From contig NC_080584.1 of assembly GCF_029962835.1 (NCBI RefSeq), forward strand, positions 78,334,862 through 78,398,861: a DNA stretch of 64,000 bases. The letters are read 5' to 3'. This document shows, one piece after another, positions 3,666 to 64,000 of this stretch. Numbering within the stretch: position 1 is the stretch's first letter; every line of letters starts with the position of its first letter. A program made the translations under genes and the position numbers. Source of the DNA: Magnolia sinica. Taxonomy: Eukaryota > Streptophyta > Magnoliopsida > Magnoliales > Magnoliaceae. A model generated the notes under the pieces. That model was given only the letters and a program-made list of their open reading frames with translations. It was not told the DNA's origin and made no database searches.

Positions 3666-6122
3666 TCACTCCTTGGAACTTACCGACGACTTGGTTTTGG
3701 ACTGCGAATTCGTTGAAGCAGTGCTTGGTGCCTGAGATGATGAAGACTCGGAGAATAAAACCATGTTCTGATTTTCTGCGAGAATCTGAAGTGATCTTGG
3801 TACTGGTGGCATGTTCACCTCCAAAACACCCTCCAAGATTTGAACAATCTGCCCCATCGAAGGCCTATCATTCTCATCGTCCTGAATGCACCATCCTGCA
3901 ACTCTGCAAGCTCGACTGAGCTCTTCCATGTTTGCATTTCCCTCCAATCTGTAATCCAACAAGCAATGGATTTCACGACTTTCGATTTTATTCACAGCCC
4001 AAATTGGGAAAAACACTGTTCCCCCTACTGCCGACTCCTCAGTATTCCTCCTCCCTGATATGATCTCGAAAAACATCATCCCATAGCTGTAGACATCGGC
4101 TTTCGGCGTGATTGGCAGGCCTGAAATCCATTCAGGTGCAAGATAGCCTCTAGTTCCTCTCATGGTTGTTAAAACCCGGCTGAATTCCCGCCCAACAAGC
4201 TTCGCCAGTCCAAAATCCGCCACCTTTGGGCAGAACCCAGCATCCAGAAGTATGTTTTCTGGCTTAATGTCGCAGTGTATGATACAATTTCGGCACTTCT
4301 CGTGAAGATAAGCTATTCCTCTCGCTGTCCCAATTGCAATCTGGTACCTCATTGGCCAATCCAGGACGTTGGAATTCTTACCAAATAGATGAGAATCCAA
4401 GGACCCATTTGGCATGTAATCATAGACGAGCAGCCTTTTAGCCACCTCTGAGCAAAATCCACGAAGGTGGATGAGATTAATGTGCTGGATCATCCCGATC
4501 GTGCTCACCTCTGTCCGGAACTGCTTCTCTCCTTGCCCAAGCCCTTCAAGCTTCTTCACTGCCACTGTCGTCAGATCAGGCAGAGTCCCTTTGAAAACAG
4601 AACCGAAACCTCCGCCGCCTAATTTCTCTGAGAAATTCTTCGTTGCGATCTGCAGACTTCGGTAGCTAAATGCAATCAAATTGCCTTGAACTGCCTCTGA
4701 ACATACCATATTCTGTTGCTGCCACTGCCTCCAAATAAAAAACAGAACGATACCCAATAGAAAAACAACTCCTGCAACTCCACCCACAACAGCCAGTGTA
4801 ATGGTCCCCTTCCTACTCGCTGAAATCTTCATTTCTGAGGCAGCAAGACGAAGATGAAGAGTCCTGCCTTCAACATTTTCATCAGAAAGCTGCTGCAGAT
4901 TCAACAAATCTCCACTCCATATCGAGCACCTGCTCTCGAAAGCATAAGCAGTGCAAGAACAGTCATTTAAGCAAGCCAATTCACATTCTCTGATACTCCC
5001 AACTTCCAAAGATCGCAAGGGGTCTTGCAGCTTCATGTTGGGCAAAGCCCAAAACCTGTTTTTCTCACCCTCAAACGACCCATTCCGCCCACACCCCAAA
5101 TGTGTTTTCCTCATGCACCCACCCCACCAACTCTCCAAATTCCAATCCTTTGGAGACTTGGGCTCGAAGCCAGGCAGGCACGAACAGGATGACGAGCTCT
5201 TCTCGTTGCAGCTCCCGAAGGCCCCGCAAAGTGCATAAACCTTGCATTGAGATCGCGGCTGCGACCAGAATAGATTCCATGAATGGATGCCTTCCAGCCA
5301 TGAAAGCTGCTTGATCTGGCCCGAAAGATCCATCACGAATCTCGAAAGCGTCAAAGAATTTTTCATCGAGTAAGTGAAATACTTCCTGTGTTCGTCTTGG
5401 ATGAAGCTGAAATTGTATATGTAATTCAAATGCATTTCAGGGACTAAGTCGAAAATTTCCCCATCCCATTTGCCACTAGTGCAGTAAATTTTACTCCCAT
5501 TCCACATGATAAAATACTGTGTGGTCTGGCCCGGGTCAATCTCGAGAGAGAACGGCCCAGGGGCTGGATCTTCCGAGTTCTTCCACGAAGTAAGCCGCTG
5601 GTTTTCGCCCGTTGCCTTGTTCAATCCAAGCCACCCTCCAGGCAGCCATGTATGAGTTGGGTGATCAAAGCTCTGCCAGTGCACCAAAGAGGAATTGGAT
5701 CTGTCTCTCAGAACAAGATTTCCAGTGTCTAGGAGGACGGCAACAGTCAAATTCAATGGCTTGGATATTAGATTGGTGGACCAGATTGGAAATTTTGAGG
5801 GGCTGAGGAGGACCAGATTGCCATCTTCTGCAATTTTTAGGATTGAATTGGAGGGGTTTTGGAGGGGGTTTTCTCTGTTGGCTACCCAGACAATTGTTTG
5901 TTCTGAGACTTGTTTGTACCAGATGCCTATGTAGTAGTTTTGGGACTTCCCTGGAGTGAAGAAACCCAGTTCAAATTTCCCATCTTGGGAGGTAAGGTTA
6001 TGTGGCCAACTAAGATGTTGAGTTGGGGAGATGGAATCTGAACCATTGGAAAGATGGGCCTTGAGAGAGAGGATCAAGAAGAGGAGGAGAGAGAGAAATG
6101 GCATACTTCTTCTGTTATCCAT
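3666..6122 (-). CDS. G-type lectin S-receptor-like Ser/Thr protein kinase, copy 1 (intact)
   Basis: Single-exon plasma-membrane receptor kinase of the SD-2 type (like Arabidopsis At2g19130), 818 residues from this start. Order: signal peptide (about 1-27), mannose-binding bulb-type lectin domain (about 34-150), S-locus glycoprotein region with an EGF-like cysteine cluster (about 200-335), PAN/apple domain (about 340-425, with RECELACLNDCSC), transmembrane helix (about 440-463), kinase domain (about 500-770), Ser/Thr-rich tail. Kinase residues are in place: glycine loop LGGGGFGSV, Lys523, Glu538, Asp618, DFG Asp636, APE. The catalytic loop reads HCD, so this is a non-RD kinase. An ATG eight codons upstream (6146) is in frame, but this one sits directly before the hydrophobic signal peptide and is conserved in copy 2. 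The ligand is unknown; a role in surface sensing or defence is inferred from the family. Confidence 0.93.
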   Translation of the reverse strand: MDNRRSMPFLSLLLFLILSLKAHLSNGSDSISPTQHLSWPHNLTSQDGKFELGFFTPGKSQNYYIGIWYKQVSEQTIVWVANRENPLQNPSNSILKIAEDGNLVLLSPSKFPIWSTNLISKPLNLTVAVLLDTGNLVLRDRSNSSLVHWQSFDHPTHTWLPGGWLGLNKATGENQRLTSWKNSEDPAPGPFSLEIDPGQTTQYFIMWNGSKIYCTSGKWDGEIFDLVPEMHLNYIYNFSFIQDEHRKYFTYSMKNSLTLSRFVMDLSGQIKQLSWLEGIHSWNLFWSQPRSQCKVYALCGAFGSCNEKSSSSCSCLPGFEPKSPKDWNLESWWGGCMRKTHLGCGRNGSFEGEKNRFWALPNMKLQDPLRSLEVGSIRECELACLNDCSCTAYAFESRCSIWSGDLLNLQQLSDENVEGRTLHLRLAASEMKISASRKGTITLAVVGGVAGVVFLLGIVLFFIWRQWQQQNMVCSEAVQGNLIAFSYRSLQIATKNFSEKLGGGGFGSVFKGTLPDLTTVAVKKLEGLGQGEKQFRTEVSTIGMIQHINLIHLRGFCSEVAKRLLVYDYMPNGSLDSHLFGKNSNVLDWPMRYQIAIGTARGIAYLHEKCRNCIIHCDIKPENILLDAGFCPKVADFGLAKLVGREFSRVLTTMRGTRGYLAPEWISGLPITPKADVYSYGMMFFEIISGRRNTEESAVGGTVFFPIWAVNKIESREIHCLLDYRLEGNANMEELSRACRVAGWCIQDDENDRPSMGQIVQILEGVLEVNMPPVPRSLQILAENQNMVLFSESSSSQAPSTASTNSQSKTKSSVSSKE

Positions 6123-6247
6123 GCCTACTGAAACATGTATGGACATGCAAGATACATGTAGGGAGGAGAAGACATGATGAGGTTGGTTGGAAGGTGGTTG
6201 CTAGTTATTAAAATGCATAGTAAACATCACTAAAATAACCCTCGGTT

Positions 6248-18723: not shown

Positions 18724-18730
18724 TATAAAA
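18724..18730 (+). promoter_or_regulatory. TATA box of the antisense accessory frame (block A)
   Basis: TATAAAA, 157 bases upstream of the accessory-frame ATG at 18881. The same 157-base spacing is found in block B (29962 to 30119). The third Tat copy has 185 bases (62067 to 62252). Confidence 0.6.
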
Positions 18731-19640
18731 GCGGGTATTCCCCTCATTTGAATTCTCTCCTCTACTTATCCTGGAAGATGCTTGCTGTTAGCAAATCCCT
18801 AGAGCATGCGATTTTCGATGAGTCTTTTCTCTTTTCAGTCCCCTTTTTCTTTCGTCTTGTCTTTTCCCATTCAGTCTACGATGTCGAATGGATCGAGCGA
18901 AGCTTGAGAAGTATGCATTTTAGGGTGATTCAGAGGCAAAGAGTGCAGACTCTAGGTGCGAGGCTTCGGAAGGCCCACTAGAAGCGATACCCCTCTGACC
19001 TAGTGCCAGAAAAGGTAAGGGCGCTAAAGCCAGTGCTCGCTTTAAAGGCACAAAAAGGATACCTCGAGATCCGATGGGATGGGCGGTCGCTGGGCCATCA
19101 AGTGGGCGACCTGCCGAGCTCATCCTCGGGGGCTCGATCTTGGTAGAATCCTAGATGGTCGAGATCTGAGCAGATTATCAGATTTTGAGCTCGGTGCATA
19201 TCCGTGCTCCGGGCCCTTTTGATGCTCCAGGGGATCCAGATGAAGGTGAGGTAGCAATCTTCATATGCGCCCTCCAATGCGGGCTCAATTTCCCATTCAT
19301 CCCTTTATGCGCGCCATGACCGCATACTTAAAGTTGGCTCTGGGTCAGCTCGTTCCAAATGTTTGGAGGATGCTGGTAGTCACCTACCTGATTTGGCATT
19401 GGCTCAAGAACTAAGATCTGACACCTGATGAGTTCATGGCCATCTATTAGGCTAAGCACGACCGCTGCGAGTCGTGTTGGTATTATTTCTCGACGAGGAC
19501 ATAAAAAGGTCCTGGCCTCATCATTATGCTTCCTTCTTCCAACAAATATTGGAAGAATAAGTGGTTTTGGGCATCGGGAGAGTAGGAGGCGCTTACCTGT
19601 AGGTCAGAGTGCCCACCAAATTCTCTACTCCAGGTTTGAT

Positions 19641-26477: not shown

Positions 26478-27017
26478 GGGACGCGGATTTCCTGCGAAAG
26501 CCTTTCGCATGAAGTTCCTGCGAAAGGATACTGTGTGGGGCCCACCACTATGTTTTTGGGAAATGTATTCCGTTCATCCGCTTGGTAAGCTTATTTTAGG
26601 AAAATCGACCAAAAACGAGGTGGATCCAAGACTAAAGTGGGCCACACGAGAGGGAAAATTAGGGAAAGAAATACTTACCGTTGAAACCTTTTTGGGCTCC
26701 ACCTTGATGTTTATATGCCATCCAAACCGTTTATAAGGTTATTAACACAGAGATGAAGTGAAAATATAAAAAATTTAGCCTGAAAGAAAGCTTTTATGGT
26801 CATGAGAATGTTTCAACGGTTCTAACTGAATCCCTAATGTTTCCTCTCGTGTGGCCCACTTGAGTCTCGGATCCACCTCGTTTTTTGTAGATTGTCCTAA
26901 AATTATCTTGCAAAACGGATGAACGGAGTATATTTTCCAAAAACAATGGTGGTGGCCCCACCCAGCATCCTTGCGCAGGAACTTCCTGCGAAATGCTTTC
27001 GCAGGAAATCCGCGTCC
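26478..27017. mobile_element. MULE-type foldback MITE with ggacgcggatttcctgcg ends (540 bp)
   Basis: Perfect 9-bp duplication ggttgtttg (26469-26477 and 27018-27026). Block A carries the empty site (about 8747-8755). The ends are near-identical over more than 40 bases and contain a repeated 'cctgcgaaag' motif; the interior is palindromic ('aaaacggatgaacgg...' arms). No transposase. Confidence 0.95.
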
Positions 27018-28815: not shown

Positions 28816-28877
28816 CTACCAAGGTGATATGTAGCACCTGTAGTAAGCTGGCCTGATCTTATATGGGGCAAAGGGCT

Positions 28878-29540
28878 TGTTGATGCAAAAAATTTGGTTT
28901 ACCCTCGCCGAGCTCCAAACACTCGCGCCGAGCCTTGTAAGCCTGCACAGGAGAATAGCAAAGGAGACCCTGGCTAGAGCAGGGAACCCTCCGATGTCAA
29001 AGTCAGGCTAGGAATCTGGGTCTAAGTAATGTGGATAAGTTTTGAGTGAGAGATTTTACATATCTCTCTATGCAAATGAGTCCCCTATTTATACCTTTTA
29101 GATAGAGTGACCATGCCTGTCATTCTCAGCACAACTTATGCCATTTTGCAGAAACGACGCATGCACTGAAATTAACAGTTACCCTGAGATCGTGCACCGA
29201 ATATTGCTCCATACGTGCGTTACTGGAGTTAAGCCTCGAGCGTGATTGTAGGGCATATCTCCGTCCGAGCCGACCTTATAATCTGAGTCCTTCCTATGAC
29301 AGTTTAGCCGTGTTGTCGATGAGCACTTGGTTGGAGTCGACGGACGAGGTGTGTAATGACTTCTTCTGGGTTTCAAGCTGATGTGAAAGCTCTATAAAAG
29401 AACTTGGACAACATAGTACAGCTTGCTCTGGGCCACGAGTCGACTTGACTTGCTCGGCCATCCCTTCTCCCTGATGCGGTCGCTCAACTAGCCGAGTCGG
29501 GCTTATCTCAATAGGAGTCGACTCAAGTTCTCTCATAACA
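28878..29540 (-). repeat. Tat element 3' LTR (663 bp)
   Basis: TGTTGATGC...CTCATAACA. A purine-rich tract, seen as 'agtctcctactctctgag' on the plus strand at 29543-29560, lies just inside it. LTR TATA box on the minus strand near 29090-29100. Confidence 0.85.
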
Positions 29541-29961
29541 AAAGTCTCCTACTCTCTGAGTTTGAGTTCAGACTCGGGGAGTAAATGCTTGATGAGATGG
29601 TCTGCCACGCCCTTCATGATGATGAGTCAGCAAAATTAAGGCATATAATTGTAATCATGGTTCTCCATTACTAAGGCGCCATACTAAGGCGGTAGCTTTT
29701 TTTATTATGAACCTGTGGTTGGTGAATACATGGCGACGGTTAAGGATTCGAATCGTTGGAACGAACGATGTGCCTACTGCGTGGACTTCAGGATGTGGAA
29801 AGATGCTTGCTCATTGATTGCCATTAAATGCAAGCAACGCGTGGCTCTGGATGTGAGTCTGAACTAACGGTGTACTGCCACGTACCCTGTAGAGTTCGGC
29901 TCTACGACATTCCAGCTTTGGATACAGTTGTTCATCATGATTACAGAATGCCGATTGAGGT

Positions 29962-29968
29962 TATAAAA
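29962..29968 (+). promoter_or_regulatory. TATA box of the antisense accessory frame (block B)
   Basis: TATAAAA located 157 bases before the ATG at 30119, with a pyrimidine-rich leader between them. Same position as in block A. Confidence 0.6.
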
Positions 29969-30118
29969 GCAGGTATTCCCCTTATTTGAATTCTCTCCTC
30001 TAATTCTCCTAGAGGACGCTTGCCATTAGCAAATCCCCAGAGCAGGCGATTTCTGGTGAGTCTTTTCTCTTTCTAGTCCCCTTTTTCTTTCCTCTTGTCT
30101 TTTCCCGTTCAGTCTACG

Positions 30119-31050
30119 ATGTCGAATGGATCGGGCGAAGCTCTAGAAGTTTATGCATTTGAGGGTGATTCAGAGCCGAAGAGTGCAGACTCTAGGTGCG
30201 AGGCTTTGGAAGGCCCACTAGAAGCGATACCCCTCTGATCTCGTGCCAGAAAAGATAAGGGTGCTAAAGTCGGTGCTCATTCTAAAGGCACGAAAAGGAT
30301 ACCGTGAGATCCGATGGGAAGGGCGGTCGCTGGGCCATCAGGTGGCTGACCTGCCATGCTCATCCCCGAGGGCTCGGTCTTAGTAGAATCCTAGATGGTC
30401 GAGATCTGAGCGGATTATCAAATTTCAAGCTCGGTGCATATCCGTACTCTAGGCCCTTTAGATGCTTTAGGGGATCCAAATGAAGGTGAAGTAGCAGTCT
30501 TCATATGCGCCCTCCAATGAGAGCTTAATTCCCCATTCATCCCTTTGTATGTGCCATGACCGCACACCTAAAGTTGGCTCTAAGTTAGCTCGTTCCAAAT
30601 GCTTGGAGGACGCTGGTAGCTGCCTACCTGATCTAGCATCGGCTTAAGAACCAAGAGCTGATGCCTGACGAGTTCATGACCATCTATCAGGTTAAGCATA
30701 ACCGCTGGGAGCCATGCTGGTATTATTTCTTGACAATGACTCAATAAGGTCCTAGCCTCATCATTATGCTTCTTTCTTCCAACAAAGATTGGAAGAACAA
30801 GTGGTTTTGGGCCTCAGGAGAGTGGGAGGCGCTCGCGACCTAGCACAGTGGTCTGCGGGTCAGAGTGCCCACCAAATTCTCTACTCTAGGTTTGATTTCT
30901 TGATGTGCCTTTTCTACTGCTAACTTTTAACTCGTGTTGTTCTTATCTGATCTTAGTTGTTCTTTGGAAAGATACCCAAAGGGTCCTCCAGAGCTCTCTT
31001 CTCTTCTTCGAACTCAGTTGCCAGGGCGAGATTGCTTAACACCGAGCAAC
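30119..31050 (+). mobile_element. Tat accessory frame (antisense to gag-pol), decayed
   Basis: Starts MSNGSGEALEVYAFEGDSEP after a TATA box and a pyrimidine-rich leader. A later stretch (about 30480-30870) resembles the plant domain annotated as 'putative gypsy-type transposon' (Pfam Transposase_28), with a 'WKNKWFW'-like segment near 30800. Additional frames of this kind, antisense between pol and the 3' LTR, are known in Tat elements. It is broken. A GT-AG intron-like interval (30890-30956) sits where the third Tat copy has one (63160-63231). Function unknown. Confidence 0.6.
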
Positions 31051-31872
31051 GCGTCTGACACCACCTCATCAATCTGGACGACCTTTATCAATCTGGTTTT
31101 TGTTGATTTAAACCTACTCCTCTCGCTTTAGGTCAGTATTAATTTACAATTCAATGGTTTGGCCGATATGTTGAGCAAACATCTTGTTTACTAGCCTTTG
31201 ATATGTAGCACCTGCATTCTTTAGGCCGAAGGGCATTACTCGATAACTGTAAAGTCCTTTGTTTGTGATGAATGTCATCTTTTGCTTGTCCAAAGGATGC
31301 ATCGTGATCTAATTATAACTAGAGTACACATCCATGAAAGTGAGGAGCTCGTGCCTGGTTGTACTATTGACCAGCCGATAGATCCTGGGAAGGGGAAAGC
31401 TATCCTTATGATAGGCTTTATTTAGATCCGATTAATCCACGCAGACTCTCCATTTTCCATTGGCCTTCTTTACGAGCACAACATTTGCAATTCAGTCTGG
31501 ATAATGAACTTCTCCAATGAAACCTGCATCGAGGTGCTTAGTGACCTCGTCGGTGATTGCGGCATACCTCTCGGGCTCGAATGCTCTTTTTTCCTGTTTA
31601 ACTGGCTTGTGATCCGTGTCTACATTCAGCCTGTGGACCATTACCTCGGGAGCGATACTTGGCATATTATGATGAGACTAGGCGAAAACGTCCCTGTGCT
31701 ATCGTAGAAACTCCAACATCTGTGTTTGCTGATCAGTGGTTAATGACGATCCAAGCTGGACCATTCTAGTCGGGTCGGTATCATCAAGCCGAATGATCCA
31801 AAGCTCCTCCATGGAGGAACCCCTCTCTAAAGGATCTTCTCTAGGGTCGAGGTTGTTGACTGTGAGGGCCTG

Positions 31873-32388
31873 TCATGTCGAGCCCTTTCTAACTGCTATG
31901 GTGTAACAACGTAGAGCCTCTCTTTGATCTCCTCGGAGGTAGTCGATCCCTCTGGTCATGGAAAACTTCATCATCAAATAGTATGTGGATACCACCACTC
32001 TCATGGCATTAAGAGATGGTTGTCCGAGAATGACGTTGTATGTTAACGGTGTGTTTACTACCAGAAAGTCTACCAACAGGGTGACTTGGTTCTGTCCCTC
32101 TCTTGCTGTGATTGGGAGAGAGATCGACCCTTCCGAGATAACCTTATTACCTGCAATGCCGTGCAACAGGGTCCGAACAGGTCGGAGGCGTGACCTGTCA
32201 ATACCCATCTTGTCGAATGCTTCATAGTATAAGATGTCAATTGAGCTTCCCGTATCGACCAAGATGTGGTACACCTTACGATTGGTTATCGTCATTGTGA
32301 CCACCAAGGCATCATTATGAGGATGTTGAATTCCATGTGCATCATCCTCCGTAAATGTGAGACTACACGAACTCACCCGAAGTTCCAT
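31873..32388 (-). mobile_element. Tat element protease region
   Basis: Aspartic protease of the Gypsy type: HILVDTGSSIDILYYEAF active-site block, then LTYNVILGQPSLNAM, the conserved 'iLGrp.l' motif. Part of the element at 28878-34740. Confidence 0.9.
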
Positions 32389-32843
32389 CCTTGGCCTGTC
32401 AGCTAAGTAGGTGTAGTGCTCGGGGTCAGTATTCTAAGCATGAACTTTTAGGGCTTGGTTTGAGTCTCCGCCTCCGGATGATCCTCCCTATATCGTCCGG
32501 ATCTCGATACCATCATCCATTGCTCTGCTTGGCTATTCGTCCTTCCGAGCCTATTTCTCTTCCTTTATATATTGATGTAAGTGACCCTTGCGAATGAGGG
32601 TCTCGATCTCCTCTTTCAAGTTGACACAATCATTGGTGTTATGCCCATGATCGCGATGAAAGCGACAATATATGTTCTTGTCTCGCTGACCCACTTTTAT
32701 TTTCATGCAGCTCGGCCAATGCAACAGCCTTTTGTCTTGGATATATGTGTTGAGAGGAGTGTATGAGTTAAATCAGCTTTCGGGTTTCCTACTCAGTCTT
32801 TGGCGGTGAGATCCATCCTCATCCGACATCTTTTTGTTTGCAC

Positions 32844-33450
32844 TTAGCGGGAAAAGGGCCGTCCTTGTGCTTTTTGTCTCCAGAGGAGCTTCCTGCATAA
32901 TGGGTTCCTTTTCGAGAGTTGAAGAAGTCTTCGCCATTCGAATATTTTTTTGGTTCGTTTCATGAAGTCTCCCATCATAGTCGGATGGTTTTTCCCTATC
33001 GAGAATAAGAATTTTCCTTCATTAAGCCCAGACATTATCGCAGCCAGAACCATCTTGTCCGAGTAATCATTGACTTGCATTGCTTCTCCATTGAATCGGA
33101 GAATGTAGTCTTTCAGATCCTCCCCATCTTTCTGCTTGATGGTGAGCAGGTGTGCGGAGGGTTTCCTGCACTGCTTCCCTACGATGAACTGAGTGAGGAA
33201 TGCCTTACTTAACTTAGCGAACAAGCCGCTAGACCTCGGCTTTAGTTGTCAATACCAGCCACGCATGGCTCTAGTAAGCGTTATCGAGAATGCTTGACAC
33301 ATAATTGGTCCGGAGGCTGACTAGAGCTCCATCCATGAAAGATACGATTCCATGTGCTCGGTAGGATCCCTGGAGCCTGAGTAGGACGTGATAGGAGGCA
33401 TTCGGAACCTTAGAGGCATCATTGCGTCCATTATTTCTCTAGTGAATGGG
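32844..33450 (-). mobile_element. Tat element gag region
   Basis: Retrotransposon gag core (LTIKQKDGEDLKDYILRF, DKMVLAAIMSGL), typical of Tat/Ogre capsid proteins. Broken. Part of the element at 28878-34740. Confidence 0.85.
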
Positions 33451-34093
33451 GGTTTGGTTTCCTCCATCATCGCGTCCACGGTGGTCGAGACTTAAGTTTG
33501 ATATGTCTGATGCATCATGTCGATCTGGTCTCGCAATTCTTTGAGCTGGGTCTCCTAGAGATCACTGTTTTTAACCACTCCTTCCTGATCCTAATTAGGT
33601 TCGGGAGTCCTTTCGCATCTTCTTCGTTACAATTCGTGACAAAGGTCGGTCGAGGCCAGTGATGATGTTTCAAAGACATGCATCAAGGCTCAGTTCGATG
33701 GCTCTCGTAGCCATATCGGGACTCGAGCAGACGCTCCTCGCGACGCGTCTTGAGACACTACGAGGGCCTGACGTTTTGCAATTGTCGGAGCATTTACCTC
33801 CTGGACTAGAGGTGGATGTTACCTCTTCATTTGCTGCCTCATTTGGCTGACCTTATTGACCAACATTTCCATCTGGTGCTGTAATGCTTGGTATCTGCCT
33901 CCTCGGTTCCTGGATCACTGAGTAGGTTCCGTTGGCGTAGATTCTATCTGTAGTCCAGAGGTTGAATTTCGCGCCCTAGATGGCTCGGGATCAACAACGA
34001 CAATTGGCATATGCATTTTCTTTTTTCTTCTTGGCATTCTCTCTGTGTAGTAAAAGTAGTTTTTTGTTCAAGTTCCCTCAGACAGTGCCAAAA

Positions 34094-34740
34094 TGTTGAT
34101 GCAAAAATCTGGTTTACCCTCACTGAGCTCCGAGCACTCGCGTTAAGACCTGTATGCTTGCACAGGAGAAGGACAAAGGAGACCCTGACTAGAGAAAGGG
34201 AACCTCTGATGCCAAAGTCAAGCTAGGAATCTGGGTAGGTTTTGAGTGAGAGATTTTGCGTACCTGTCTATGCAAATGAGTCCCATATTTATACCTTTTG
34301 TATAGAATGACCGTGCCCATCATTCTCGGCACAACTTATGCCATTTAGCGGGAATGACGCATGCGTTGAAATTGACAGTTGCCCTGAGATCGTGCACCAG
34401 ATATTGTTTCATATGTGCGTAATTGGAGTTAAGCCTCGAGTGTGATTGTAGGGCATATCTCCGTCTAAGCCAACCTTATAATCTGAGTCCTTCCTATGAC
34501 AGTTTGGTTGTGTTGTCAATGAGCACTTGGTCTGAGTCGACGAATGAGGTGTGTAATGGCTTCTTCTGGGTTCCAGGTTGATGTGAAAGCTCTACAAAAG
34601 AATTTGGACAATATAGTACAGCTTGCTCTAGGCCACAGGTCGGCTTGACTTGCTCAGCCATCCCTTCTCCCCGACGTAGTCACCCAACTGGCCTAGCCGG
34701 GCTTATCACAATAGGAGTTGGCTCAAATTCTCCCATAACA
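34094..34740 (-). repeat. Tat element 5' LTR (647 bp)
   Basis: TGTTGATGC...TCCCATAACA, paired with 28878-29540. On the minus strand a TATA box lies near 34290. The primer-binding region (plus strand 'cagacagtgccaaaa', 34079-34093) abuts its inner end. Confidence 0.85.
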
Positions 34741-36479
34741 GTGATTATTCCAAAGCACTCTTTTATCACTTGGTTAAACTTTCTTGGTTGACTTACAACA
34801 AAAAATAGATTAAAAGGATTTAATAATATACCGAATGAAAATTGTACTTTTCGTTTGTGGGATTAAATCTATTAAGTATATTTTCTTTCAATTCCTTTTC
34901 CTTTTTTGCTTTGGAGGAAAATTCACTATAAATTTAATCTCATTCCATTATTAGGATCTTCCATAAGAGACAGATTGTGATTCTCTCCTGATAATACCGG
35001 AAAAATTCCTATAAACAACGTTAAAATGTAGGCTTTGCTTCTTGGTATTGTTTGGCATGCTTGGAGGGAAAGGAAAGTATCTTAAGATGCATTTTGAAGA
35101 ATGTAGGAAGTAATGTCATGCGTTATCTTAGTCCTAACATTGCAAGCAATGCATCTGCAAATCCCCTTGTTGCATGGAATCTTCCCACTTCCATTAATGA
35201 AACCCATCTTAGACCCTTTATACAATGCCATAATAGTATTTCTGCCAGATGCTGGAACTTGTCTTGTGCAGCTTTTCTGCTTTTCCTTCACAGGATGTAT
35301 CTATTGGGGTGCATCTCTAAAATGTAGCGGCATTGCTCTAACGATTAATGCCTTAAAATTATTTTCTACAACTTAAGGACGTTGGTTTCAAGTTTCATTT
35401 CATATATTTCCTTTGACCTCTACATTAAGGAATTAATCCAATGTAAGATCCAGCCTGGTCCTTGTGGGGTATGCGTTTGTATGCTCGATTTATGAATTGT
35501 AAAGTTAAGTGTGTAAAGATTGACCTTATTTCCATTGAATTTGAGAAAGAGAAAGCTGATTGTGAAGCTCTATTTTGTCCCTTATCCTTCTCCCTTGATT
35601 CGCCTCTTTTCTTCTCTTAAGCTAGCCCTCCTCTATTTTGTCAGAAGCTTTGGTTGTTTCTTGCTAGGTCTGGGCGTGGGCATTCCTTTCCCTGACCTAA
35701 GGTGTGAGTTATTTTCTATTCTTTCCTAGCCTTAGATGTGAGCTTTTTCTTTCTCCTAAGGTTAGCCTTTTGTGAAGGGTTTTTACTTTCCTCACCTTTT
35801 GTTTCTTCTTACTCTTTAGTAGTCACAAGTTGAACAACAACTTGGATTTGGTATTTCTAACTTTTGATTTTTCGAATTTTTATAGGCAATGCAATTGTTG
35901 GTTTGGAGTATCAATGTCAGTCTGATTAGTGAATAAAAGTAATATTTGATTCGCATTATGGTCAGGGCAATCACTTGTCATTAATGGGAGACCCATTGTC
36001 ACATAAGTGTCAAAATCAAAGTTCAAATAGCAAAATTAAGATGAGTATCAACTAGTCATTTCAACATCAAACTCAAAGAAAATTCTAGAGCAACCATGAA
36101 TCAGGGGATACCTTTCATGTCTTTTTTATCAGTGTAGTGGTTGGATCCCTGTAAAGCCACAGAATATATGCAGGGTAGTTACCTCATTCCTTCACCCTTG
36201 GATGCAATTAAGTTGAACTTTCTTAAACAAACAACTAATGCAGATACTTGAGTCATAACGAACCAAGCCAGTTTTAAGCCTAACTAGAATGTTAGGGTGT
36301 TTTAAGCTTTGACATTCTGTTACATGCAACCTCTATCAAAGTGATGCAGGAGAGAGCTTAAAACAATAACAGAAAGATCACTATCTTCCTCAAGTGGTTA
36401 AAACCTTAATCTACAAGGAAAGTTCTTAGGTCCATAAGAAAATAGGAGAGAAAATTTCGATATTTTATTGAATAGTGTA
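34741..36479. other. Non-coding, no repeat recognised
   Basis: AT-rich sequence between two Tat LTRs of opposite orientation. Short frames at 35052-35376 have no family resemblance I can see. Pyrimidine-rich stretches at 35560-35800. I see no gene, RNA gene or repeat boundary. Confidence 0.5.
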
Positions 36480-42830: not shown

Positions 42831-42905
42831 AAACATGAGCCCCACCTATCATAATTTAAAAGGCATGTATAGTGCACAAACATGAGCCCCACCTATCATA
42901 ATTTA
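42831..42905 (+). promoter_or_regulatory. 28-bp direct repeat in the proximal promoter of receptor kinase 2
   Basis: The 28 bases starting aaacatgagccccacc are identical at 42831-42858 and 42878-42905, 73 to 147 bases upstream of the chosen ATG (42978). A single diverged copy is present, inverted, in block A (about 7838-7862) and block B. No good TATA box is seen between the repeat and the ATG; 'aataaat' near 42923 is the best candidate. Confidence 0.6.
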
Positions 42906-42977
42906 GGAGGGCGTTTCAGTCACAATAAATTCTCATTCTCACATCTATCTTGCTTGTCCATGCATGTTTCAGTAGGC

Positions 42978-45356
42978 ATGGATACCAGAAGAAGCTTGCG
43001 ATTTCTCTCTCTTCTCCTCTTCTTCATCTTGTCTCTCAAGGCCTACCTCTCCAATGATTCAGATTCTATCACCCCAACTCAACATCTTAGTTGGCCTCAT
43101 AACCTAACCTCTCAAGGTGGGGCATATGAACTGGGTTTCTTCACACCAGGCAACTCCCAAAAATGCTACATAGGCATCTGGTACAAACGAGTCCCACAAC
43201 AAACAGTTGTCTGGGTAGCCAACAGAGAAAAACCCCTCCCAAACCCCTCCAATTCAATCCTAAAAATTGCAGAAGACGGCAATCTCGTCCTCCTCAGCCC
43301 CTCAAATTTCCCAATCTGGTCCACCAATCTAATATCCAAGCCATTGAATTTGACTGTAGCGGTCCTCCTAGACACTGGAAATCTTGTTCTGAGAGACAGA
43401 TCCAATTCCTCTGTGGTGCACTGGCAGAGCTTCGATCACCCAACTGATACATGGCTGCCTGGAGGGTGGCTTGGATTGAACAAGGTAACGGGTGAAAACC
43501 AACGGCTTACTTCATGGAAGAACTCGGAAGATCCAGCCCCTGGGCTGTTCTCCATAGAGATCGACCCAGGACCGAGCACACAGTATTTTATTATGTGGAA
43601 TGGGACTAAAAGTTACTGGAGTAGTGGAAATTGGGATGGGGCAATTTTCAGCAATGTCCCCGAAATGCGATTGAACGATTTCGATTTCATTCAAGGCGAA
43701 CGGAGGAATTACGGTTTCAACTTCATCAATGATGAACAGAGGAAGTTTTTCAATTACTCAGTGAAAAATACTTCCTCCCTTTCCAGATTCGTGATTGATC
43801 ATTCTGGTCAGATCAAGATGATTTCATGGCTAGAATACTCCTCTCAATGGAATCTGTTCTGGGCGCAGCCAATATCTCAATGCGATGTTTATGCTCTTTG
43901 TGGTTCCTACGGAAGCTGCAACGAGAAGAGCTCGACCTGTACGTGCTTGCCCGGTTTTGAGCCCAAGTATCAGAACGACTGGGATTTGAGGAGTTGGTCG
44001 GGTGGGTGTATGAGGAAAACCCATTTGGAGTGTGGGCAGAACGAGTCATTCGATAGTGAGAAAAACGGGTTTTTGGCTTTGCCAGACATGAAGCTGCCAG
44101 ACGGCTCACGATCATTGGTGGTTGGGAGCATCAGAGAGTGTGAATTGGCCTGCTTAAATGACTGTTCTTGCACTACTTATGCTTTTCAGAGCAGGTGTTT
44201 GATATGGAACGGAGAATTATTGAATCTGAAGCAGCTGTCTGATGGAAATAGTGAAGGCCAGACGTTTAATCTCCGTGTTGCGGCCTCTGAACTGAAGATT
44301 TCGGATCGTAGTAAGGGGACCAGTACATGGGCTGTTGTAGGTGTGGTTGCAGGGGCTGTTCTTCTTTTGGGTATTGCTCTGTTTTTTATTTGTAGGTGGC
44401 AGCGACAACGGAATATGGTCAGTTCAGAGGCAGTTCAAGGCTCTTTTATTGCATTCAGCTACCGAAGCCTGCAGATTGCAACGAAGAATTTCTCAAAGAC
44501 ATTGGGCAGCGGAGGTTTCGGTTCTGTTTTCAAAGGGACTCTGCCTGATCTAACAATGGTGGCGGTGAAGAAGCTTGAAGGGTTTCGGCAAGGAGAGAAG
44601 CAGTTCCGGACGGAGGTGAGCACGATTGGGATGATCCATCACATTAATCTCATCCGCCTTCGTGGGTTTTGCTCGGAAAGGGCTAAAAGGCTGCTCGTCT
44701 ATGATTACATGCCAAATGGGTCTTTGGATTCTCATCTGTTTGGTGAGATTGCCAACATCCTGGATTGGCCGATGAGGTACAAGATAGCAATTGGGACGGC
44801 GAGAGGAATAGCTTATCTCCACGATAAATGCCGAGACTGTATCATACATTGCGACATTAAGCCTGAAAACATACTTCTAGATGGTGGGTTCTGCCCAAAG
44901 GTAGCGGATTTTGGCCTGGCAAAGCTCATGGGCCGGGAATTCAGCCGGGTTTTAACAACCATGAGAGGAACAAGAGGCTATCTTGCTCCTGAATGGATTT
45001 CGGGGGTGGCAATCACGTCAAAAGCTGATGTCTACAGCTATGGGATGATGGTTTTCGAGATCATATCAGGAAGGAGAAATTCTGAGCACTTCGAAGTAGG
45101 GGAAACGGTGTTTTTCCCAATTTGGGCTGTGAGGAAAATCACGAGCGGTGAAATCCATTGCTTGTTGGATTACAGATTGGAGGGAAATGCGAACATGGAA
45201 GAGCTCGGTCGAGCTTGCAGAGTGGCAGGCTGGTGCATTCAGGACAACGAGAATGACAGGCCATCGATGGGGCAGATTGTTCAAATCTTGGAGGGTGTTT
45301 TGGAGGTGAACGTGCCGCCGGTACCAAGATCACTTCAGATTCTTGCGGAGAATTAG
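42978..45356 (+). CDS. G-type lectin S-receptor-like Ser/Thr protein kinase, copy 2 (short C-terminus)
   Basis: Single-exon paralogue of 3666-6122 (roughly 80 % identical by eye), 792 residues from this start. Same order: signal peptide, bulb-type lectin domain, S-locus glycoprotein and EGF-like cysteines, PAN/apple domain, transmembrane helix (about 451-472), kinase. Lys531, Glu546, HCD Asp626 and DFG Asp644 are intact, so an active non-RD kinase is plausible. An open frame extends upstream (ATGs at 42882 and 42960), but 42978 matches the start in copy 1 and precedes the hydrophobic segment. Residues about 234-258 contain a short internal duplication (FDFIQGERRNY / FNFINDEQRKF), giving more residues than copy 1 here. 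The frame ends at a TAG that replaces a Gln codon; the former tail is still readable downstream. Confidence 0.92.
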   Translation: MDTRRSLRFLSLLLFFILSLKAYLSNDSDSITPTQHLSWPHNLTSQGGAYELGFFTPGNSQKCYIGIWYKRVPQQTVVWVANREKPLPNPSNSILKIAEDGNLVLLSPSNFPIWSTNLISKPLNLTVAVLLDTGNLVLRDRSNSSVVHWQSFDHPTDTWLPGGWLGLNKVTGENQRLTSWKNSEDPAPGLFSIEIDPGPSTQYFIMWNGTKSYWSSGNWDGAIFSNVPEMRLNDFDFIQGERRNYGFNFINDEQRKFFNYSVKNTSSLSRFVIDHSGQIKMISWLEYSSQWNLFWAQPISQCDVYALCGSYGSCNEKSSTCTCLPGFEPKYQNDWDLRSWSGGCMRKTHLECGQNESFDSEKNGFLALPDMKLPDGSRSLVVGSIRECELACLNDCSCTTYAFQSRCLIWNGELLNLKQLSDGNSEGQTFNLRVAASELKISDRSKGTSTWAVVGVVAGAVLLLGIALFFICRWQRQRNMVSSEAVQGSFIAFSYRSLQIATKNFSKTLGSGGFGSVFKGTLPDLTMVAVKKLEGFRQGEKQFRTEVSTIGMIHHINLIRLRGFCSERAKRLLVYDYMPNGSLDSHLFGEIANILDWPMRYKIAIGTARGIAYLHDKCRDCIIHCDIKPENILLDGGFCPKVADFGLAKLMGREFSRVLTTMRGTRGYLAPEWISGVAITSKADVYSYGMMVFEIISGRRNSEHFEVGETVFFPIWAVRKITSGEIHCLLDYRLEGNANMEELGRACRVAGWCIQDNENDRPSMGQIVQILEGVLEVNVPPVPRSLQILAEN

Positions 45357-48614: not shown

Positions 48615-48795
48615 TGTCACAATTGCTTTTTAGTGTATTTCTCATTCATTATTTACAAAGGTATTGTATACATTTATAGAGAGATTGGCTACGCTATTCT
48701 TAGCTATACAGATTACGCTATATAGATTTTCAGGACTAGAATCTCTTTGATTTGATTTATTCCTATAATCTCTTAATTGACAACTCACGCCAACA
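48615..48795 (-). repeat. 3' LTR of the 48.6-53.4 kb Copia element (181 bp)
   Basis: TGTCACAATTGC...GCCAACA, followed on the right by the polypurine tract (ctccccctcaag on the plus strand). Confidence 0.95.
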
Positions 48796-53263: not shown

Positions 53264-53444
53264 TGTCACAATTGCTTTTCAGTGTATTTCTCATTCATGA
53301 TTTACAAAGGTATTGTATACATTTATAGAGAGATTTGCTACGCTATTCTTAGCTATACATATTACGCTATATAGATTTTCAGGACTAGAATCTCTTTGAT
53401 TTGATTTATTCCTATAATCTCTTAATTGACAACTCATGCCAACA
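53264..53444 (-). repeat. 5' LTR of the 48.6-53.4 kb Copia element (181 bp)
   Basis: Same length as the 3' LTR with five substitutions and no length differences. Confidence 0.95.
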
Positions 53445-57470: not shown

Positions 57471-57753
57471 TGAAATGCGGTGATCAGGCTAATACAAAAC
57501 AATTAACTTAGTTCGGGAGGCTAAATTCCATTGTTTCAAGTTGCATATGAAACAAATTAAACCACAAATAGGGAGCAACCCTTTATTAATCGTGGCCATT
57601 TCAACTATATTAGACTGAAATATCGTAATTTAACTCAATTAAACATCCAAATTAATGCAGCTTATACAAAGAAAATAAACAAACCAGAGCTATTATAGCA
57701 AACTGTAATTTCTGCGCAATGAATTATATTGGAACATTTGGACAATTGAGATC
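57471..57753 (-). other. 3' flank of receptor kinase pseudogene 3
   Basis: Matches the 3' flank of copy 2 base by base over most of its length and that of copy 1 more weakly, so copies 2 and 3 are the closer pair. Confidence 0.7.
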
Positions 57754-58588
57754 TCACCATGACAATCTGCACTTGTAGGAACCTGTTGACAAAGCGATCT
57801 TGTAACGCGAATTCTTTAATTCATTGCTCGGCCCCTTGTACAACGAAGACTCCGATAAGAAAACCATGTTCTGATTTTCCGTCTGATTTTCCACTAGAAT
57901 CTGAAGTGGTCTTGCTACCGGCGGCACGCTCACCTCCAAAACACCCTCCAAGATTTGAATAATGTGCCCGTTGACGGCCTGTCATTCTCATCTTCCTGAA
58001 TGCACCAGCCGGCGACTCTTGTTAACCGAGCTCTTCCATGTTAGCATTTCCCTCCGATCTGTAATCCAACAAGCAATGGATTTCACCGCTGGTGATTTTC
58101 CCCATAGCCCAAATAGGGAAAAACACTATTTCCCCTACTTTCAAGTGCTCAGAATTCCTCCTTCCTTAAATGATCTCGAAAACCATCATCCCATAGCTGT
58201 AGACATCGGCTTTGGACGTGATTGCCACCCCTGAAATCCATTCAGGAGCAAGATAGCCTCGTGTTCCTCTCATGGTTGTTAAAACCATGCTGAAATCCTG
58301 CCCAATGAACTTTGCTAGGCCAGAACCGCCACCTGTGGACAAAACCCACCATCTAGAAGTATGTTTCCTGGCTTAATGTCGCATTGTATGATACAGTCTA
58401 GGCATTTCTCGTGAAGATAAGCTATTCCTCTCGCCGTTCCAATTGCTATCTTGTACCTCGTCGGCCAATCCAGGATGTTGGAAATCTCACTAAACAGATG
58501 AGAATCCAAAGACCCATTTGGCATGTAATCATAGATGAGCAGCCTTTTTAGCCTTTTCTGAGCAAAACCCACGAAGGCGGATGAGATT
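57754..58588 (-). pseudogene. Receptor kinase copy 3: kinase-domain pseudogene cut by a Tat element
   Basis: Retains the C-terminal two-thirds of the kinase domain and the tail (LLIYDYMPNGSLDSHLF, NILDWPTRYKIAIGTARGIA, then the ENQNMVFLSESS tail). The catalytic loop reads QCD for HCD. A one-base loss at the DFG motif (about 58320) removes the Asp and shifts the frame; further frame damage lies around 57960-58040. The normal stop is lost, so the tail runs on to 57754. At 58588/58589 the reading stops abruptly at the TGTTGAT terminus of a Tat LTR. The lectin, PAN, transmembrane and N-terminal kinase parts are not in the window. The 3' flank is closest to copy 2. Confidence 0.9.
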
Positions 58589-61990: not shown

Positions 61991-62073
61991 GACACGTGTC
62001 AGGCGGGGGAGTCAAAACAGGCGTTGATTCAACTCCTCCTTAAATGCCTCTGCCGCATGGCAAGGCTATAAAA
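61991..62073 (+). promoter_or_regulatory. G-box and TATA box before the antisense accessory frame
   Basis: A palindromic GACACGTGTC (61991-62000, G-box CACGTG) and, 67 bases further on, TATAAAA (62067-62073), 185 bases upstream of the ATG at 62252. The leader between them is pyrimidine-rich. The TATA box is conserved in position in the other two Tat copies; I noticed the perfect G-box only here. Confidence 0.6.
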
Positions 62074-62251
62074 GGAGGAGTAGGACACTTCTTTCCCATT
62101 TTCATGCATTAGCTCCTTCTCCCGATTTCTCTTCTTTGTTATCACCATTTTCCCCACTGTTTTCATCTTCCTTTTCCTTTTTGCTTCCTTGTCTATGTAC
62201 TTTTCGCCTCTCTGGTGAGTTTTCTCTCCCTCCCTTTCCTTTTCAATCTTA

Positions 62252-64000
62252 ATGGCAATGCATTCTTCAAGTCCTAGGGAGGGGATTTCCAGTGATGAGG
62301 ACGAAACGAGACATCTCTGAAATGTCTCAGAATTGCACATTGCTGACGGAGATAGCGATTGGCACCAACGAAGCTTTCCAGTTCTCTGAAAGAGTGTCTG
62401 GGACTTTAGCGGAACGTCCTGCTTTGGCAGACCCTTCTCACGAAGATGTATCTCTAGTGGCTGCCCCAGGCAGACCTAACCCTCCAGATATACCTGGGGA
62501 GGAACTGGAAAAAGAGGATGAAGAGATTAAGGGGGCCAGTGTGTCGGTTCCTCTTAGAAGATCAGCACGGGCCATTGAATAGGCATACGAGGAAGGGGAG
62601 GTTACCGAGGGAGGGGAGGCTGGAGACGAGCAGAGGGGTCCGGTCCCTTCGGTCTTAACTGAGGCGGACTTGGACAAAATTCGAGTCAGGTACCATGTCC
62701 CTGACTCAATTATTCTTCGTCTCTCCCTCCCGAGTGAATTACCCGACCATCCTCCTGCTAGGATGGTTGCGATTTTTCAAGTCACTATGCAATGTGGCTT
62801 GCGTCTGCCCATCAACTCGTTGCTTGAGATTTTTTTTTTCTAACTCTAAATCGCTCCCGGGCAGATAGTTTCGAATGGGTAGAGGAACTTGTTCGGATGC
62901 TCAGTGCTGTGGGCTGAGACAGATTAGCCCCCACTGACTATCGATGAGTTTTTCTATCTGTATTAAGTACGGCCAAACCCTCAACAGCCCGGCTAGTACT
63001 TCTTGTGCGCTTGGCGGAACAAGGGCAGTCCTTTGATAACCGACCCTCCTACCTCCAACAAGCACTGGAGAGAGAGGTGGTTCTGGGCGTGCGATTGCTG
63101 GGAGACTACAGAGCTTGGGCTCTTCGAACCTCATGTTCCTCGAGCGTTCTCTAAAGCAGGTGACTCGGCGTTTCCTTCCTCTGCCTTTTCTTGTTACGAT
63201 ACTTTCGAGTCTGACTGAACACGTTTTGCAGATATCCTCAAGAAAAGGCCGAAGCTAGAAGCTGGTGCTTTAACTCGGATCAAGATTTAAAGGCAGTCTT
63301 GGAAGATACTTCTTCAGCCAGAGCGTCTTCTTATCTCTTGCTTAAACTCAACCGTGACAGGTATTCGCTGGTTGTTCTGACGCATTCTTCCTAGATTTTA
63401 TTCTAACTCTGTGCTTTGTCTGATATAGAGATGGCTGAAGCTCAGCCCCTTCTGAAACTAGCTTCCAAGATGAAGGCTCTTCTGAGGTCGATGCTTCTAT
63501 CGGAGACTCAACCTTTGAAGAAGCCGAAGATGGCTCCAAAGGCTAAGGGGACATCCACCCTGGTCACCTCTGCCCTGGTCATCCTGACTGTGGTCGTACT
63601 CTCTGACCCAGAAGAGAGGGCGGAAGAGGTGGGTGCGATTCCTACTAAGTCCCAGGTGGCTCCTAAGCCAAGACCCGTTACAGAGTGGGTCTCGGAACTG
63701 AGAGAGGAGCAGAGAGGGGAGACCTCAGGGGAGGAGATGACTCAATAGGAGCCTTTGCCCCTTCAGCGGGACATGTCGGTCATGGTCCCTTGGGCCATCT
63801 CTCATGGGGGAGAGACGAATTATGCTGGCCTCTGTAGCTCCCCCTCGAGGCGGGTTCTTGCTCACGCGACAAAGGTGCTGCTGGAGGTAAGGTCTTTGAT
63901 CTTTCCTGTCTTAAGTAGTTCACCACTCGTTTCGGCAACTTAGTTCTGATATCAAGTTTTCTTTTTACAGTTTGCCCCATGCGTGCTTAGGAGTGCTCGG
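62252..64000 (+). mobile_element. Tat accessory frame (antisense), longest copy
   Basis: Begins MAMHSSSPREGISSDEDE, followed by a long acidic, Pro/Glu-rich region (about 62290-62580) and a stretch resembling the plant 'putative gypsy-type transposon' domain (about 62640-62830: VPDSIILRLSLPSELP, MQCGLRLPINSLLEI; then WRERWFW near 63070). Three GT-AG intron-like intervals follow: 63160-63231, 63361-63428 and 63888-63970, the last with a strong GTAAGG donor and TTTTTACAG acceptor. It is broken in places. Additional antisense frames are known for Tat elements, but their function is not established. Confidence 0.6.

Follow-up and report, generated by a model that had tools for sequence, protein, structure and literature searches.

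Evidence from genomic copies for a candidate TATA-started, spliced antisense TRP28 gene in Tat/Retand retrotransposons of Magnolia sinica

A 64-kb window of contig NC_080584.1 of Magnolia sinica (the window being the whole stretch of DNA that we analyzed, within a genome of 1.84 Gb) contains at 28.9 kb a decayed long terminal repeat (LTR) retrotransposon with a reading frame on the plus strand, antisense to gag and pol. Judged by its sequence, this frame is a decayed copy of the antisense TRP28 accessory gene of Retand elements. Comparison with relatives across the genome indicates that the gene very probably consists of three exons, is started from a TATA box of its own and spliced, and is carried between pol and the 3' LTR. 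The lineage name Tat/Retand is taken from the TRP28 domain together with the layout of the elements, and we use it in that provisional sense. A preliminary description of the window had proposed an own core promoter and a spliced structure on the antisense strand; both survive the comparisons given here as predictions, and an own promoter was already published for maize Grande. The same description rightly treated antisense extra frames in Tat elements as established, as antisense TRP28 open reading frames (ORFs) have been described (PMC11963269, PMC7264820). The element at 28.9 kb has the following features (lengths in nucleotides, nt).

28878..29540, minus strand (the gag-pol strand): 3' LTR of the Tat/Retand element, 84.5% identical to 34094-34740
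29962..29968, plus strand: candidate TATA box of the antisense gene, the most conserved 7-mer of 29860-30119
30119..30889, plus strand: predicted exon 1 of the antisense gene (TRP28 region), from ATG 30119, with landmarks WKNKWFWASGEWE ... VPTKFS, broken by stops and frameshifts
30890..30970, plus strand: predicted intron 1 in its ancestral register, donor GT intact, acceptor AG changed to AA in this copy
30971..31131, plus strand: predicted exon 2, decayed, 161 nt (162 nt in most relatives of its group), in the frame YPKGPPEL...
31132..31146 (end approximate), plus strand: predicted intron 2 donor and first bases, GTCAGTATT..., matching loci L009 and L006
31147..34067, minus strand: remnants of gag, protease and reverse transcriptase in convergent orientation to the antisense gene, with a large part of pol gone
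34094..34740, minus strand: 5' LTR of the element, 84.5% identical to 28878-29540

The LTR termini read TGTTGATGCA...CATAACA. No target site duplication was found, the flanking 5 nt being different (GGGCT at 28873-28877, GTGAT at 34741-34745), and the divergence of the two LTRs marks the insertion as old. Pfam matches on the minus strand comprise Retrotrans_gag (9.2e-9), RVT_1 (2.1e-6, marginally below the cut-off) and an aspartyl protease below its cut-off. Past 31146 the copy enters the reverse transcriptase remnant. With a broken frame, a mutated first acceptor and no exon 3, this copy is dead.

The antisense gene and its candidate promoter

Relatives were collected by a genome search with the Pfam profile PF04195 (Transposase_28), which scored 150 of 2201 candidates and whose best 30 are called profile-seeded loci below, and by a DNA search with window positions 29841-31130, which scored 40 of 635 candidates. 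The TRP28 gene is thus abundant in this genome. The plus-strand frame of the element at 28.9 kb has the landmarks common to the TRP28 gene and aligns with its relatives. At the profile-found locus L060, the open exon 1 matches PF04195 at 4.1e-8. The adjoining stretch encodes RVT_1, RNase H and RVT_3 domains in the opposite orientation, and the gene and pol terminate near each other in a tail-to-tail arrangement (the LTR of L060 was not located). Exon 3 of L060 gave no Pfam match, and no PF04195 score was obtained for two decayed pieces of the copy at the right edge of the window. A second, archaeal-type RNase H is typical of Tat, and at L062 and L061 an RVT_3 frame on the minus strand is distinct from the RT_RNaseH frame. 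Such a second RNase H is named for Tat in PMC6317226. Among viral contigs we found no relatives, 21 pattern matches having yielded 0 confirmed ones.

L060 belongs to a young TRP28 family, in which the query site and 7 others are 97-100% identical over 1.8 kb (40 places scored of 1258 candidates). This degree of identity suggests that these elements have recently been active in the genome.

Two further copies of the gene lie in the window.

18724..19633, plus strand: 17.6-kb copy, with candidate TATA box 18724, ATG 18881 and predicted exon 1, ending just past the donor GT at 19634
62067..63159, plus strand: right-edge copy, with candidate TATA box 62067, ATG 62252 and predicted exon 1, decayed
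63160..63231, plus strand: right-edge copy, predicted intron 1, 72 nt, GT-AG, corresponding to intron 1 of relatives
63232..63360, plus strand: right-edge copy, predicted exon 2, decayed, 129 nt (147 nt in most relatives)
63361..63428, plus strand: right-edge copy, predicted intron 2, 68 nt, GT-AG, at the homologous place in relatives
63429..64000, plus strand: right-edge copy, start of predicted exon 3, which continues beyond the window with frames to ~64527 (window numbering)

After its donor the 17.6-kb copy turns into unrelated sequence. Exon 3 of the right-edge copy looks coiled-coil-like by eye, and farther along there is an RVT_3/RNase H frame on the minus strand.

TATAAAA had been noted 157, 157 and 185 nt upstream of the three plus-strand frames, and these distances hold, with boxes at 18724, 29962 and 62067 before ATGs at 18881, 30119 and 62252; other ATGs lie nearer to the box in the 17.6-kb and right-edge copies. 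The gap from LTR edge to TATA box is 421 nt in both the 17.6-kb and the 28.9-kb copies, which places the core promoter candidate outside the LTR in the two window copies with known LTR limits. With 12 occurrences of TATAAAA on the plus strand of the window and 8 on the minus strand (20 in all), a single box means little and the weight comes from other copies.

In an alignment of the upstream region with 30 rows (two window copies and 28 others), TATAAAA is exact in 25 rows, and its conservation of 0.971 against a mean of 0.793 is the highest of any 7-mer across 260 upstream positions. The spacing from TATA box to ATG is 139-169 nt in 24 of the 30 rows; in the other six the value is absent or far off, owing to mutations in the five-base motif from which it was measured. 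In 21 of the 30 profile-seeded loci, TATAAA or TATATAA begins 540-720 nt upstream of the TRP28 match, where the rate in the remainder of these loci would predict 0.05 per locus. These 21 loci are spread over 8 of 11 groups (70% nucleotide identity; our own reading). Given this excess and the rank of the box among upstream 7-mers, a chance TATA was rejected.

It is improbable that the introns are real and the transcript nevertheless begins at an antisense promoter in the 3' LTR. Antisense promoters, some of them in LTRs, are known from other retroelements according to the parts of PMC7264820 consulted, and a second plus-strand TATAAAA, at 29393 inside the LTR of the element at 28.9 kb, is a possible promoter of this type. 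The internal box is the conserved one in spacing and presence, in a comparison that covered the internal box alone, and the same review attributes antisense transcription in maize Grande to a promoter that lies upstream of gene23 (PMC7264820).

Candidate introns and constraint on the exons

The predicted first donor follows the first base of the G codon in the landmark VP..F..(P/A)G, and exon 2 opens at an xPK-type landmark. In the 30-row alignment, GT is present at the column of 30890 in 28 rows, and AG at the columns of 30969-30970 in 27 (26/29 omitting the unrelated 17.6-kb row). The donor landmark was recognized in 26 of the 30 profile-seeded loci and is followed by GT in 24 (21/23 by pattern and 3/3 by eye, a misplaced pattern match in L033 having been left out of the count). 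Thus TATA spacing and GT and AG positions are conserved in the wider sample, and the refuting outcome named in the preliminary description did not occur.

That description had drawn an intron-like interval at 30890-30956. Its GT at 30890 stands; we rejected the acceptor at 30956, where AG occurs in 5 of 30 rows against 27 of 30 at 30969-30970. Since the conserved acceptor reads AA in the 28.9-kb copy, the interval is best described as a dead intron of 81 nt and not 67. The intron 2 donor at 31132 is an addition to the earlier list. In the right-edge copy the interval 63160-63231 is as first described; of the 'two more' intervals proposed there, one could be placed (63361-63428, intron 2) and no other was identified.

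The young L060 family was sampled with 14 copies, four of them profile-seeded and 10 fetched, 8 of the latter chosen for long open frames. Exon 2 measures 147 nt in 13 copies and 144 nt in one and is a multiple of three in all 14. Intron 1 measures 60-90 nt, its length being 0, 1 or 2 modulo 3 in 6, 7 and 1 copies; intron 2 measures 67-102 nt, with 9, 2 and 2 of 13 copies in these classes. The splice signals are well kept: GT in 13/14 copies at donor 1 and 14/14 at donor 2, AG in 13/14 at acceptor 1 and 13/13 at acceptor 2, which is deleted in L064.

Beyond this family we chose by eye 20 loci with recognizable exon 2 ends, 16 profile-seeded and 4 DNA-seeded. Of the 14 profile-seeded loci outside this set, four are in the young family, L033, L036, L043 and L049 have no landmark, L046 is unrelated after the donor, L032 has an unclear acceptor, L048 has lost the donor, and L038, L040 and L055 look intact by eye. 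In the 20-locus set GT is present at donor 1 in 19 loci and at donor 2 in 19, and AG at acceptor 1 in 19 and at acceptor 2 in 14. Lengths divisible by three are found for exon 2 in 17/20 loci, for intron 1 in 9/20 and for intron 2 in 4/20. The T content is 42% in the introns and 26% in the exons. Single linkage sorts the 20 loci into seven groups at 70% and 13 at 75% (L006 was not clustered), and both introns are present in eight of 11 groups at 70% single linkage, the L060 family included.

With a protein query spanning the junctions, 150 of 2703 candidates were scored, yielding 273 matches. Among the best 150 rows considered, exon-2 protein matches cover query residues 21-85 of 103, exon 2 itself lying at about 28-77. 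Among the matches listed, ends fall within 8 residues of the predicted junctions, mostly within one or two, and one match covers exon 1 alone. It is strongly supported by these comparisons that both intervals fit U2-type introns, with GT-AG at conserved coding positions, T-rich sequence, a length free of the codon rule and phase 1.

Decayed copies rarely lack the donor GT, and where the acceptor CAG has gone it has mostly become CAA (acceptor 2 of L035, L042, L047, L050 and L006; acceptor 1 of L053, L056 and window positions 30969-30970). In the 20-locus set, CAA stands in place of five of the six lost acceptors. Methylation-driven decay of a CHG site is the likely cause.

The intervals might instead be variable coding linkers, the gene being one long frame whose copies have decayed. 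Six of ten copies (8 of the 10 chosen for long open frames, a choice that biases toward this outcome) indeed read through a retained intron 1 into exon 2 in frame, long open frames surround exon 2, and 9/13 young copies have an intron 2 whose length is divisible by three. Such linkers are nevertheless highly improbable: the interval lengths fall into all classes modulo 3, even among L060, L071 and L072, which are 98-99% alike, and exon 2 lengths do not. A retained intron 2 meets an in-frame stop within 4 codons in 11/11 copies read, which would leave a product without exon 3, and between groups GT and AG are kept though the bodies of the intervals look unrelated by eye.

Further support for a protein encoded by three exons comes from the ratio of nonsynonymous to synonymous substitution rates (dN/dS) in the young family, calculated for L060 against L034, L056 and L057, pairs that all share L060 and are not independent. 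The ratios are, in that order, 0.09, 0.11 and 0.10 for exon 1, 0.10, 0.14 and 0.07 for exon 2, and 0.15, 0.20 and 0.11 for exon 3. In exons 1 and 3 of these pairs, 63-114 changes fall at the third codon position versus 11-39 at either other. Divergence amounts to 16-20% of aligned sites in intron 1, 27-35% in intron 2 and 22-26% in the stretch from TATA box to ATG. For eight pairs from other groups the totals at the three positions are 168, 125 and 254, the third again highest, two of these pairs having few aligned bases. By this sequence measure, the protein read across the three exons of the young family is under strong constraint (purifying selection). The notion that TATA box and GT-AG limits are due to chance, or are handed down by mere common ancestry without function, draws on the ancestry that all copies share and on the frequency of TATAAAA on both strands of the window. 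With dN/dS near 0.1 in the young family and the TATA excess described above, we give it a very small chance.

Junction patterns (young family, up to 3 mismatches, searched in 1.84 Gb with reversed controls) were found 375 times for the boundary of exon 1 and intron 1, with 0 occurrences in the reversed controls. The joined exon 1/exon 2 and exon 2/exon 3 patterns occurred 0 and 0 times in the same search, and no processed, intron-less copies of the young family were thus found at that sensitivity. The introns probably persist because the RNA that is reverse-transcribed is of the opposite strand. The reading of the intervals as sense-strand introns of the genomic RNA, modeled on Ogre, where a spliced intron lies between two gag-pol ORFs (PMC6317226, as far as consulted), is extremely improbable, since both the GT-AG signals and the exons beside them belong to the antisense strand and removal from genomic RNA would yield intron-less copies, of which the young family showed none.

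Several observations weigh against a TATA-started, spliced gene of three exons. The TATA motif is missing from the expected place in 9 of the 30 profile-seeded loci, 4/30 have no donor landmark, and L046 becomes unrelated soon after the donor. Acceptor 2 is gone in 6/20 loci of the selected set, and the one scored as present in L052 is doubtful. The length of intron 2 is divisible by three in 9/13 young copies versus 4/20 loci of other groups, an excess that may be inherited among these related copies. In six of 14 young copies intron 1 is a stop-free multiple of three, so that unspliced translation through it is possible, and its divergence of 16-20%, below the exon synonymous rate (dS) of 0.36-0.75, means that intron 1 is not free of constraint. 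The pairs L053/L054 and L040/L058 show no excess of third-position changes. Finally, the copies are all related by descent and belong to a single genome, and counts of groups are for this reason fairer than counts of copies.

Other features of the window

Open frames of 844 and 827 amino acids at 3666-6200 (minus strand) and 42873-45356 (plus strand) resemble G-type lectin receptor kinases by eye. They are ~85% alike and inverted, and with a third, partial copy at 57491-58588 they represent a local gene duplication. Direct repeats of 181 bp (48615-48795 and 53264-53444, 97% alike) surround minus-strand frames that look copia-like by eye, and the element between them is probably a young Ty1/copia. 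An inverted repeat with 187-bp arms (26479-26665 and 26831-27017, 86% complementary, 165 nt spacing) was also noted.

The proposed gene and known systems

In the gene model that we favor, transcription would begin at an internal TATA box (in two window copies ~420 nt inward of the 3' LTR) and proceed toward pol. The transcript would lose two short, T-rich spliceosomal introns of phase 1, which would join exon 1 to exons 2 and 3. Exon 1 would encode an acidic N-terminus and the TRP28 domain, exon 2 about 49-54 codons, and exon 3 a basic cluster, a coiled-coil-like region and a conserved C-terminal motif. In 20/22 loci a loose basic-cluster pattern falls among the first 60 exon 3 residues, a count that stands without a background rate; the coiled-coil-like sequence of exon 3 was recognized by eye, and the C-terminal motif by pattern in three young-family loci and by eye beyond the right-edge copy. 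New insertions would be copied from the sense genomic RNA, in which the splice sites read CT...AC and would go unrecognized. The product would be a nuclear protein of ~700 amino acids that may regulate or assist the element, in line with GENE23 of Grande. Transcription and splicing of the antisense gene are what we infer from these genomic copies.

One may go further and suppose that a host-style unit was acquired as DNA and that splicing acts as a switch: the spliced message would give a nuclear TRP28-coiled-coil protein, retention of intron 1 or 2 a TRP28-only form without the basic cluster, and the strand arrangement would bar the spliced message from insertion. We offer this tentatively and think it unlikely.

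The spliced model would supply the right protein to express or fold and the exact junctions to seek in RNA-seq. Introns may also explain why surveys of unspliced ORFs see some TRP28 domains only in short frames; several TRP28 domains in frames shorter than 600 nt are counted in the part of PMC11963269 consulted. A 2020 review urges a search for antisense and spliced transcripts (PMC7264820, in the portion read), which is now directly testable.

The closest known counterparts are the antisense TRP28 ORFs (aORF-3R) of Retand, which lie between pol and the 3' LTR and are spread through flowering plants (PMC11963269, PMC7264820, as far as these could be consulted). They share position, antisense orientation and the TRP28 (PF04195) domain with the genes described here. 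They are described as ORFs, the word 'intron' being absent from the main text of both papers, whereas the genes here have two predicted introns and three exons. PMC7264820 describes gene23 of maize Grande as another accessory gene in antisense orientation, with a promoter of its own upstream and a product that is nuclear. That account mentions no intron in gene23, and the likeness is one of description. We found no report of introns in the antisense TRP28 gene among the papers listed by our literature searches, a scope in which the 2011 and 2013 primary papers were not included. Antisense TRP28 ORFs and transcription of Grande gene23 from its own promoter were thus known already, and the two introns are new as far as the literature searched goes.

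LTR retrotransposons are expected to lose introns, as they pass through RNA. Ogre and EVADE are called notable exceptions to the intronless plant LTR elements in a 2025 review (PMC12786077, consulted in part). Ogre also has a spliced intron inside a plant Ty3/gypsy element, but on the sense strand, between the gag-protease and the RT-RH-INT (reverse transcriptase, RNase H, integrase) ORFs, and spliced in a subset of transcripts, according to the portion of PMC6317226 consulted. The arrangement found here also resembles the antisense-intron reporters built for LINE-1, IAP and ONSEN, in which gene and element are likewise opposed and one transcript is spliceable (PMC12786077, same portion). The reporters carry their intron in the same orientation as the element and lose it when they retrotranspose, whereas the predicted introns of the TRP28 gene are antisense to the element and kept. 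A mobile gene would in this way have kept two introns through hundreds of insertions, the likely reason being that it is read from the other strand.

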